Of a stretch of 64,000 bases of DNA, positions 34,514 to 37,920 are shown one piece after another. This DNA comes from Haloglomus litoreum (GTDB taxonomy: Archaea; Halobacteriota; Halobacteria; Halobacteriales; Haloarculaceae). The stretch spans positions 1,922,001-1,986,000 of the forward strand of contig NZ_CP119988.1 in the NCBI RefSeq assembly GCF_029338515.1, in the 5' to 3' direction. Made by a program: the position numbers and the translations under genes. The notes beneath the pieces are model-generated. The model was not told where the DNA came from, did no database searches, and saw only the letters and a list, made by a program, of their open reading frames with translations. Each line of letters opens with the position of its first letter. The first letter of the stretch is position 1.

Positions 34514-35431
34514 ATGCACAGTGGCCGTCTCCCCGTCTCCGAGTTCGCCGGGGGGTTCGACCTCCAGTCGACGCTCGAGAGCGGGCAGACCTACGTCTGG
34601 GGCCGCCCCGACGGCGGGATGTTCACGGACGAGGTCGCCTGGGGCGGCGACGCCTGGTACCACACCGTCCTGCCGGCGACCGAGACGGGGACGAACGAGC
34701 CGGAGGTGCTCCGATGCCGGCTCACCGGCGGGGCGCTGGAGTGGGAGGCCTCGACACCCGAGGCACCCCGGCACCTGACGCGCCTGCTCCGGCTGGACGA
34801 CGACCTCGATGCCATCGTCGAGTCGACGCCCGACCTTCCGCTCCTCCGGCGGGCGTACGAGGCGTACGGCGGGATGCGACTGGTCGAGGACCCCTCGTTC
34901 GCCTGCCTCATCTCGTTCATCTGCTCGGCCCAGATGCGCGTCTCGCGCATCCACGGGATGCAGCGACGGCTCGCACGCGAGTACGGCGACACCGTCGAGT
35001 TCGACGGGCGGACCTACCACGCCTTCCCCACCCCGGACCAGCTCGCCGCCGCCAGCGAGGCCGACCTCCGCGACCTGTCGCTGGGCTACCGCGCGCCGTA
35101 CGTCCAGCGGACCGCCGAGATGGTCGCCGAGGGCGAGGCCCACCCCGACGAGGCCCGGGAGCTGGAGTACGAGGCCGCGCGCGACTACCTCACCCAGTTC
35201 GTCGGCGTCGGCGAGAAGGTCGCCGACTGCGTGCTGCTGTTCTCGCTGGACTTCCTCGAGGCGGTCCCTCTCGATACGTGGATCCGCACCGCCATCGAGG
35301 AGTACTACCCGGAATGTGACCGCGGCAACTACGCCGAGACCTCACGCGCCATCCGCGACCGCTTCGGCGGCGAGTACGCGGGGTACGCGCAGACGTACGT
35401 CTTCTTCTACCTCCGTACCGGCGGCGAGTAG
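34514..35431 (+). CDS. 8-oxoguanine DNA glycosylase (OGG/AlkA-type HhH-GPD)
   Basis: 305 residues. An N-terminal OGG-like domain (FDLQSTLESGQTYVWG) is followed by the helix-hairpin-helix and the glycine/proline-rich catalytic loop. Lys235 (FVGVGEKVADC) is the Schiff-base lysine and Asp254 (VPLDTW) the catalytic aspartate, both present, so it should be a bifunctional glycosylase/AP lyase acting on 8-oxoguanine. Base-excision repair of oxidative damage is the expected role. The gene is separated from its divergent UPF0212 neighbour by 89 nt. Confidence 0.9.
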   Translation: MHSGRLPVSEFAGGFDLQSTLESGQTYVWGRPDGGMFTDEVAWGGDAWYHTVLPATETGTNEPEVLRCRLTGGALEWEASTPEAPRHLTRLLRLDDDLDAIVESTPDLPLLRRAYEAYGGMRLVEDPSFACLISFICSAQMRVSRIHGMQRRLAREYGDTVEFDGRTYHAFPTPDQLAAASEADLRDLSLGYRAPYVQRTAEMVAEGEAHPDEARELEYEAARDYLTQFVGVGEKVADCVLLFSLDFLEAVPLDTWIRTAIEEYYPECDRGNYAETSRAIRDRFGGEYAGYAQTYVFFYLRTGGE

Positions 35432-35582: not shown

Positions 35583-36431
35583 TCACTCCGTCGTCTCCAG
35601 CCACCGGCGGACCCGTTCCGCGACCGTCCCCCGGAAGGCACCCCAGTCGATGTCGACCGCACCCGTGTCGGTGACGCCCCGGAACAGCGCGCCGTGGTTC
35701 GCGCGCGTCACGCGGTCGAGCACCGCCTCGAACAGCGGGTCGAACGCGACCGACTCTCCACGCTCCTCCAGCGCCGCTGCCCGCGTCGCGACGAGGTCGT
35801 CCGTGACGAACTGCTCGGCCAGCCCCGTCGCGCCGTCGGTCTCCACGCGGACCGTCGGTGGTTCGTCTGGAACGTCCGCCGCCATCAGTCGCACCCGGTG
35901 GCCGCGCTTGTCGACGAAGGTCACGCCCGCCGCGGGGCCGTCGTACCACGCCGACGCGGGCAGGTCGTACCCGGCGAGCGGCCGCTGGTCGACCGACCGC
36001 TCGCGTTCGACGACGGTGACCGGCGGGGGGCCGAGCCGCTCGAAGACCTGCTGGGCGCGGTCCGGCGGCAGCCATCGCTCCTCGTGGCCGTCCCAGATGG
36101 CCGTCCCCATGACGGCCGGGAGCCGGTCCCAGTCGTAGTCGATGCTCCGGTGGTGTGTCGCCGCCCCGGCGAAGGTGTAGCGCGCCGGCTCGTCGACCGT
36201 ATCGAGGTAGGCCCCGAGGTCGAAGGCCCGCTCGATGAAGCGACCGGCGTACCCCAGGGTCGGTGGCACCTCCTCGAAGGTCCGCTCGGCGTCGCCGAAC
36301 CGGAGGTAGCCGGCCGACGCGACCGCGAACCGGACCGCGGCCGCGTCGAGCCACTCGTGGACCCAGACGTGCCCCTGCAGGTGGTCCGACGCGACGTCCG
36401 CGAGCGACGGTACCGGCGGGTAGTCTCGCAC
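35583..36431 (-). CDS. RNA ligase-like protein with substituted active site (probable pseudoenzyme)
   Basis: 282 residues. The order of segments follows haloarchaeal proteins of the covalent nucleotidyltransferase (RNA ligase) superfamily as I recall them: HVWVHEWLDAAAVRF where EKVDGAN-RF is expected, then FAGAATHHRSIDYDWDR, LPAVMGTAIWDG, ASAWYDGPAAGV and RGHRVRL. The catalytic Lys of motif I is Trp27. The motif III Glu is Ala90, the motif IV Glu is Ala168 and the motif V Lys is Arg181. Asp29, the DYDWDR motif and SAWYDGP remain. Fold retention with loss of every catalytic residue suggests a non-ligating nucleic-acid-binding protein. Family assignment is from memory, not a search. It is adjacent to the HMGS-like operon but separated by 55 nt. 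Confidence 0.55.
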   Translation of the reverse strand: MRDYPPVPSLADVASDHLQGHVWVHEWLDAAAVRFAVASAGYLRFGDAERTFEEVPPTLGYAGRFIERAFDLGAYLDTVDEPARYTFAGAATHHRSIDYDWDRLPAVMGTAIWDGHEERWLPPDRAQQVFERLGPPPVTVVERERSVDQRPLAGYDLPASAWYDGPAAGVTFVDKRGHRVRLMAADVPDEPPTVRVETDGATGLAEQFVTDDLVATRAAALEERGESVAFDPLFEAVLDRVTRANHGALFRGVTDTGAVDIDWGAFRGTVAERVRRWLETTE

Positions 36432-36486
36432 GGCTCCCGGTGCCGCCGCCGCGAGGATAAGTCCTCGTGCCGAGTGACGCCGCCGG

Positions 36487-37920
36487 TCAGTCGTCCGCGG
36501 GGCGGACCTTGAACCCGTAGCGGGTCACGTTCTCCTGCGTGTACACCCGGCGGACGACCGCCTCGACACGGTCCCCCACGGCGAGTTCCCCGTCCGCCTC
36601 GGGGTCGTGGTCTGTCACCTGTGCGGGTGCGCTGACGACCCCGCCGTCCGGGCCGTCGAACGCGACGACGACGACGCCGAACGCGCCGCTGCGGACCTGC
36701 TGGGTGGCAAACTCCGGCGGCGCTCCGCCACGGCCGATCCGGGTGACGGCCTCGACGGTGCCGTGACCGGGGAGCGTGACGGCGTCGTACTGGACCAGGG
36801 CACCACAGTCCGTGCAGGCCCCCTCCGGCGGGAACGCGAGAGCCCCGCACTCCGGGCAGCGACCGGCGACGAGTCGGTGGCGCTGCGCCAGCGAGCGCTT
36901 CCAAGTCGGGACGGGGACGTACGCGCCGCCGCCCTCCGGGTCCTGGCCGTCGAGGTCCCCACGCCGGCGGAGGTACTCGGGGTACGAGAGGTCCAGGTCG
37001 CCCTCGATGGCCAGCTCGGCAGCGACGGGTGTCTCGGTCTCGACGAGGAACACGTCGGCGCCGGCACCGCTCCCGTAGGCGGCCGCGAGGACGCGGTCGT
37101 GGTCGTCGGCGAGCGCCCGCGCGAGCGACAGCGGGACGCTCGCTGCGCCCGTGTCACCGAGGTCCTGGACCGTCGCGCACGTCTGGATGGCCTCGCTGTC
37201 GACACCCAGCGGGCCCGTCGCGCGGTACGGCCGCTTGCCGTCGGGAGCCTGCACCGCGGCGGCCGATACGTCCGGCTCGTCGATGCCCGCATCAGCGGCC
37301 GCGCCGGCCAGCGCGTCGTGGAACACCGCACGGTCGTAGCTGGTCACGCCGAGGCCCTGCACGCGGTCGTCACCCGATTCGCGGAATCGCTCGCCGGGCC
37401 GCGGTGTCGTGTACTCCCCGTGTGCGACGACTCGTGCGCCCTCGCCGGGGGTCAGCACGAACGCTGCCGCGCCCGCGCCCGCGGCGTGCTCGCGCTCGTC
37501 GGGTGGCTCCGCGCGCGGGCAATCCGCGGCCACCACGAGCATGGGCGACCGTTCGGCGTCCAGCGCGGCAGCCAGCGCCCGCATCCCGGCGCGGGTACTC
37601 GCCGTGAACTGATGATGGGTCGCCGTCCCCGGCGCACCGAGCATCGACCCGAGCCGGACCACGAGTTCCTCCTCGGCGAGCGGTGGCGTGGTGGTCGCGA
37701 GCGACAGCCCTGCGAGTTCGTCGCCGTCGATGCCGGCCGCGTCCAGTGCTCGGCCGGCGGCCGCAGCAGCCATCGTGAGCGTGTCCTCGTCGGCCTCCGC
37801 GACGGCCTTCCGCTCGACGCCGGACGCTTCGAAGCGGCCCCAGGCCTCGGCGAACGCGTCCGCGTCGATGCGGAGGCGGGGCGCGTACGCACCGACACCC
37901 GTGATGGCGAGGTCGCTCAT
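36487..37920 (-). CDS. HMG-CoA synthase-like/DUF35 OB-fold fusion protein
   Basis: 477 residues. The N-terminal 330 residues are a thiolase-fold protein related to HMG-CoA synthase and ketoacyl synthase III (ITGVGAYAPRLRID, then VAADCPRAEPP, AAYGSGAGADVF). The expected nucleophilic Cys region reads QFTASTRAGM (104-113), so Cys is replaced by Ser or Thr. The C-terminal 130 residues are a DUF35 module: the zinc ribbon CPECG/CTDCG and an OB-fold (GHGTVEAVTRIG, then VVVAFDGPDGG). In archaea a separate DUF35 protein scaffolds thiolase and HMGS into one complex; here it is fused. The gene overlaps the thiolase stop by 4 nt (ATGA), so they are translated together. Confidence 0.82.
   Translation of the reverse strand: MSDLAITGVGAYAPRLRIDADAFAEAWGRFEASGVERKAVAEADEDTLTMAAAAAGRALDAAGIDGDELAGLSLATTTPPLAEEELVVRLGSMLGAPGTATHHQFTASTRAGMRALAAALDAERSPMLVVAADCPRAEPPDEREHAAGAGAAAFVLTPGEGARVVAHGEYTTPRPGERFRESGDDRVQGLGVTSYDRAVFHDALAGAAADAGIDEPDVSAAAVQAPDGKRPYRATGPLGVDSEAIQTCATVQDLGDTGAASVPLSLARALADDHDRVLAAAYGSGAGADVFLVETETPVAAELAIEGDLDLSYPEYLRRRGDLDGQDPEGGGAYVPVPTWKRSLAQRHRLVAGRCPECGALAFPPEGACTDCGALVQYDAVTLPGHGTVEAVTRIGRGGAPPEFATQQVRSGAFGVVVVAFDGPDGGVVSAPAQVTDHDPEADGELAVGDRVEAVVRRVYTQENVTRYGFKVRPADD

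Follow-up and report, generated by a model that had tools for sequence, protein, structure and literature searches.

A ligase-fold protein of Haloglomus litoreum without ligase catalytic residues, and the recurrence of this state among its haloarchaeal relatives

The window analyzed here is a stretch of 64,000 nucleotides from Haloglomus litoreum (contig NZ_CP119988.1, positions 1,922,001 to 1,986,000). It contains a gene for a protein of 282 amino acids (Table 1), at the position given in an initial annotation made from the sequence alone. The N-terminus of the deduced protein aligns with the conserved start of its family, M(K/R)xxPxxP, all five Haloglomus sequences aligned have the GTG start, and the gene was found in all four Haloglomus genomes examined; the nearest named match is from H. 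halophilum (78%). Within the 55-nt gap that separates the gene from its upstream neighbor lies GAGGACTTATCCTC, the TTAT of which is located 26–29 nt before the GTG. As this distance fits that of a leaderless haloarchaeal promoter, GAGGACTTATCCTC is probably a TATA-like promoter element that directs leaderless transcription, and the gene would, thus, be equipped with a promoter of its own (a scan for sigma-70 promoters and terminators is uninformative for archaea). In GAGGACTTATCCTC, the putative TATA-like element is flanked by an inverted repeat of 5 bp; this sequence is identical in four of the five Haloglomus sequences and might be an operator.

Table 1. Features at the pseudo-ligase locus (positions within the window).
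Feature	Position	Strand	Remarks
HhH-GPD DNA glycosylase	34514-35431	plus	Convergent with pseudo-ligase gene
Pseudo-RNA-ligase gene, 282 aa	35583..36431	minus	GTG start; stop at 35583-35585
Helical C-terminal domain, residues 190-282, conserved R243 and R267	35586..35864	minus	Predicted alone, pLDDT 82.9
Nucleotidyltransferase domain, residues 1-189	35865..36431	minus	AlphaFold2 pLDDT 96.1; VIA-align
Arg181 at motif V Lys position (weak marker)	35889..35891	minus	Alignment
Ala168 replacing motif IV Glu	35928..35930	minus	Ala in ~89% (weighted) of Lys-less copies
Glu144, invariant in intact and dead copies	36000..36002	minus	Column conservation
Ala90 replacing motif III Glu	36162..36164	minus	Alignment, column conservation
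Trp27 (TGG) replacing motif I nucleophilic Lys	36351..36353	minus	Alignment with intact homologues
Glu26, invariant in intact and dead copies	36354..36356	minus	Kept in 100% of Lys-less copies
GAGGACTTATCCTC, putative TATA-like element	36453..36466	minus	TTAT the same in all five Haloglomus sequences
ChsH2-type zinc-ribbon and OB domains, thiolase-fold C-terminal match	36487-37920	minus	55 nt upstream of pseudo-ligase gene

The neighbors named in the initial annotation, a DNA glycosylase and a metabolic operon, are indeed present, but neither offers a functional clue. The operon adjoins the gene only within Haloglomus. The glycosylase gene is oriented tail to tail with the pseudo-ligase gene and, the two being convergent, they do not share a transcript; a functional link was rejected, their shared position reflecting old synteny rather than an operon. 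The glycosylase–UPF0058–aIF2beta–TFB side is common to the window, G143, G066, and L037, and the HflX/MoaC/NnrDE side of G143 is also found in Halolamina and G207 (except for the glycosylase, the neighbors are named as read from their sequences). The orders MoaC–NnrDE–pseudo-ligase or pseudo-ligase–HhH-GPD–UPF0058–aIF2beta–TFB are kept in several genera, in all cases with copies devoid of the catalytic residues (hereafter, dead copies). Judged by these shared gene orders, the chromosomal position is old in Haloglomus and related genera. Elsewhere, the gene is found at unrelated sites, including megaplasmids of Haloferax, Haloterrigena, Haloarcula, Halomicrococcus, and Natronomonas. Clustering the neighbors across 108 loci yielded lineage-level synteny only and no conserved partner gene.

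The three stretches initially taken as ligase-like (IDYDWDR, SAWYDGP, and KRGHR) all occur in the translated ORF, and alignment with intact homologues placed Trp27, Ala90, Ala168, and Arg181 exactly where the motif I lysine, the motif III and IV glutamates, and the motif V lysine are expected, as had been claimed. Motif I of the window protein reads WLDA, and the nucleophilic lysine of KxDG is absent; the registers of motifs I and IV agree with those of Pab1020 in a profile alignment. By this alignment, the protein lacks the residues on which lysine adenylylation and metal catalysis depend. The exchange in motif V (the region contains Arg179 and Arg181) is a weak marker of loss, since Q, T, M, or I occupies that position in some homologues in which K27, E90, and E168 are all intact (K/E/E). 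Among K/E/E-intact copies, L146, L148, L111, L117, L087, and others often carry Q, T, or M at position 181, which is why some of them may be impaired as well. That four residues were lost while the rest was kept proved accurate for much of the pocket region (E26, D29, R34, E144, D164–G165, G169, and K175), but not for the glycine of motif I, which is also exchanged (G30 to A) despite being nearly invariant even among the other dead copies (98%). The window copy is one of the more divergent members of the family, lacking the family residues R72 and F150 in addition to G30.

BLASTP of the window protein against intact ligases, which are often annotated as “RNA ligase family protein,” gave full-length alignments with E-values as low as about 1e-60, at ∼35–41% identity. 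Both have the same length and fold and share the stretches GHLW..E-x-x-DG, DYDW, SAWYDGP, and NKxG; unlike the intact members, the window protein has lost the motif I lysine and the motif III and IV glutamates and remains below the cut-off of the Pfam model RNA_ligase (PF09414; E 0.23, 12 bits versus 27). In contrast, 32 of 32 intact homologues, with the motifs K-V-D-G, F-G-E-A, and P-A-E-G, matched this model at E 0.001 or better (down to 6e-22). As its close intact homologues are true PF09414 RNA ligases, the window protein is a dead branch of this Rnl2-like, ATP-dependent family. None of the NCBIfam models (including TIGR02307 and TIGR01209) matched the window protein, and the intact relatives score far below the equivalog cut-off of TIGR02307. 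A direct search of PDB sequences gave no match for the window protein, and one weak match, Pab1020, when the intact-form profile was used. The idea of an inactive paralogue alongside an active family member was discarded as a general situation, as each of the 67 positive genomes of the window's family contained a single match. A viral origin of the dead form was rejected because viral contigs contained no match to it; the intact form gave three short weak matches there and has distant relatives (26–28%) in Halogranum tailed virus 1 and in Bacillus and Staphylococcus phages. Outside the Halobacteria, an even phylum sample yielded no family member except for one weak match (E 7e-9).

The AlphaFold2 model of the window protein, built from 117 family sequences, had a mean pLDDT of 96.1 and a pTM of 0.91. 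When residues 1–189 were compared with known structures using VIA-align, the best matches were all RNA ligases: the RNA ligase of Naegleria (6vt1_A; Z 17.5, 182 residues, rmsd 2.8) ranked first, and T4 Rnl2 (1s68) reached Z 17.3. The best E-values of Foldseek were obtained for archaeal Rnl3-type ligases (E 6e-8). The RNA ligase nucleotidyltransferase fold suspected from the beginning was, thus, recovered unambiguously, which, together with the full-length BLASTP E-values, excludes chance likeness. The situation is less clear for the C-terminal 93 residues. Modeled alone, they retrieved T4 Rnl2 entries at ranks 1 and 3 of 358 chains (Z 6.9 and 6.7; for 2hvr_B, Z 6.7 over 78 residues, model residues 8–93 aligned to chain residues 249–329), a level which common helical arrangements can reach by chance, and Foldseek with this domain alone gave nothing significant. 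For these reasons, an Rnl2-like architecture is likely for the whole protein, but less certain for its C-terminal part.

The distribution of the dead state was assessed in 292 haloarchaeal genomes, evenly drawn and at least 95% complete, using a profile of both forms; the 136 family members recovered were scored residue by residue at K27, E90, and E168. The motif I lysine was missing in 101 of them, 29 were K/E/E, and 6 were partial. All three residues were gone in 96 of the 136; the remaining losses concerned E168 only (five copies), K27 and E168 with E90 kept (five), or E90 and E168 with K27 kept (one). Not a single copy in this sample lacked K27 while retaining E168. Such nesting suggests that E168 was usually lost before, or along with, K27, but as a tendency rather than a rule, because L147 (from outside the 292 genomes) lacks E90 only, and L140, L112, and L157 have lysine instead of alanine at position 168. 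Nearly half of the sampled genomes are without the gene. Throughout Haloglomus, Halonotius, and a Haloferax-type clade, the copies are dead, but their reading frames are open. Family genes broken by stops or frameshifts were encountered in G058, G251, G351, G269, G153, and G368, some of them intact-type by identity; these split copies could represent either ongoing loss or assembly errors.

Whether the loss is confined to the catalytic residues was evident from 162 Lys-less sequences (∼92 effective lineages), in which the 49 columns conserved to at least 97% in the intact copies were compared; as the Lys-less copies had been picked on position 27 only, the remaining columns constitute a fair test. 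Only K27, E168, and E90 collapsed (0, 0, and 11% kept, respectively), followed at a distance by D29 (51%), P185 (52%), and F88 (53%). Retention was 100% for E26, E144, G169, and G20, 99% for H21, Y99, and P158, 97% for W23 and G41, 95% for R243, 92% for K175, and 91% for R34. Position 168 was alanine in 89% of the Lys-less copies, so the replacement itself appears to be constrained there. No new conserved polar catalytic residue emerged in the dead group, its only group-specific positions being T92 and L121. Pairwise dN/dS (NG86), which gives rough estimates only, ranged from 0.14 to 0.37 for dead pairs and from 0.08 to 0.22 for intact pairs; for the window gene versus two Haloglomus relatives it was 0.24 and 0.37, and for the neighboring glycosylase gene in the first of these pairs 0.19. 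The dead genes are under purifying selection. In one genome, that of Halorubrum californiense, two dead copies (L011 and L018) coexist, ∼89% identical to each other and with a dN/dS of about 0.2.

The dead copies do not derive from a single event. In a careful tree of 40 rows, calculated without the motif columns, 8 changes between the intact and the degenerate state were required, at least 7 of which are forced by well supported branches, and one clade comprising all degenerate rows was rejected (AU p 3.6e-120); because the rows had been picked to include mixed clades, this tree indicates several changes but not their total number. A quick tree of 125 rows required 12 changes, at least 4 of them forced, and one of 80 rows required 8 for K27 alone, no more than one being forced by its starred branches. 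The deep branches among the dead copies are poorly resolved, and some losses are recent (L145/L013/L096/L147). Change from intact to dead is the likely direction, as the outgroup (tandem KFDGS paralogues, L137) consists of intact ligases. The initial annotation had considered that intact KxDG orthologues might expose the window gene as a single decayed copy. Such orthologues were found, but dead copies are common and arose repeatedly; a single decayed copy is ruled out by the 101 Lys-less members, the column conservation, and the tree.

Taken together, the initial claim of a pseudoenzyme is strongly supported by the ligase fold, the lost catalytic residues, purifying selection, and the similar condition of most haloarchaeal members. 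Binding of nucleic acid ends in the absence of sealing, as initially suggested, is plausible. We consider it probable that the gene encodes a pseudo-ligase of a conserved kind that evolved repeatedly from Rnl2-like, ATP-dependent RNA ligases of haloarchaea, that binding of nucleotide and/or RNA was kept while sealing was lost, and that the protein acts by occupancy. Judging from conservation, the edge of the pocket and the RNA-facing surface would be retained; the ligand would be a nucleotide and/or RNA at an end or a nick, and the protein could thereby protect or sequester broken RNA, or serve another protein as a partner that binds RNA or nucleotides. The recurrent change of Glu168 to alanine suggests that binding remained useful in proteins in which sealing had been turned off. 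Chances seem even for the more specific proposal that one RNA ligase was repeatedly and convergently made into a dedicated non-catalytic protein binding RNA ends or nucleotides; the exchange of the motif IV glutamate for alanine would then be an early step that recurred. Against a binding function counts that no partner gene or conserved operon points to it; the broken copies in some genomes and a dN/dS somewhat above that of the intact copies are likewise unfavorable to a conserved pseudo-ligase. In Haloglomus itself, function may be reduced, given the divergence of the window copy and its loss of G30, R72, and F150.

The main rival is that the dead copies are dispensable ligases under relaxed selection, in which the catalytic residues are lost first and the gene is broken or deleted later. 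The patchy presence of the gene, which its absence from nearly half of the genomes marks as dispensable, agrees with this, as do the broken copies, the frequent and partly recent losses, and the slightly raised dN/dS, and some lineages may fit it. However, relaxed selection should erode all conserved columns to a similar degree, whereas only catalytic columns vanished and E26, E144, G169, and H21 stayed invariant over ∼92 effective lineages; nor would it be expected to leave dead open frames across Haloglomus, Halonotius, and the Haloferax-type clade at an old locus. As it leaves the selective pattern of loss unexplained, we regard it as unlikely overall. As a special case of action by occupancy, the protein could join an active ligase such as Rnl3 or RtcB in a heteromeric RNA-repair complex, itself being a subunit without activity. 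A separate Rnl3-type ligase, its motifs intact, is encoded in the genome of the window, and the RtcB-like gene and second ligase next to an intact relative (L142) hint at an RNA-repair setting for the family, but neither neighborhood nor co-occurrence supports this for the dead copies, which lack a conserved partner cluster, making it very unlikely. Residual or different enzymatic activity, such as a reaction of a nucleotide bound noncovalently in which E26, E144, K175, and R34 take part, would be in keeping with the several polar motif-flanking residues invariant in both groups, but is highly improbable with the nucleophilic lysine and both motif glutamates lost in 96 of the 136 sampled copies and only T92 and L121 specific to the dead group.

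Pseudoenzymes are well known for kinases and phosphatases, but we know of no described family of the DNA/RNA ligase superfamily in which the dead form is the majority, and targeted full-text searches retrieved none. Should the pseudo-ligase reading be true, dead ligases are the commonest form of this family, in which naturally occurring intermediates then mark the passage from enzyme to pseudoenzyme. As most genomes with the gene carry a single orthologue, and this can be intact, partly dead, or fully dead, the order of loss and the retained features are directly testable. The annotation “RNA ligase family protein” often wrongly implies activity in haloarchaea. Compared with known ligases, the window protein resembles T4 RNA ligase 2 in its nucleotidyltransferase domain and probably in its helical C-terminal domain, but is only ∼8% identical to it and lacks the catalytic residues. 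The Naegleria gruberi RNA ligase, of the Rnl5 type, differs by a further N-terminal domain before residue 139 and by its catalytic residues. Archaeal Rnl3 (Pab1020/MthRnl, TIGR01209) belongs to the same superfamily, but its chains are longer (about 375–389 amino acids). The Rnl3-type ligase in the window's genome (L178, G000:C1:113138-113647) retains its KLDG, E, and EG motifs; the cell therefore does have an RNA ligase. Targeted full-text searches with partial coverage returned no published description of this family but only papers on Rnl3 (PMC12153264, PMC4606414), in which Pab1020 is a homodimer (PMC4606414) and archaeal Rnl3 is linked with the protein-only RNase P HARP (PMC12153264).

Some intact family members are found in a two-ligase arrangement, in which a second, distant RNA ligase with intact motifs (motif I, EKFDGS) follows directly or is encoded a few kb away (L105:6789-7937, L107:6000-7736, L141:6850-7944, and L142:2208-3311). 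At L142, an RtcB-like gene recognized by eye (MPDAHPGAGCVIGF; L142:7027-8529, minus strand) adjoins the intact ligase gene and is near the second one, which together form an apparent RNA-repair cluster.
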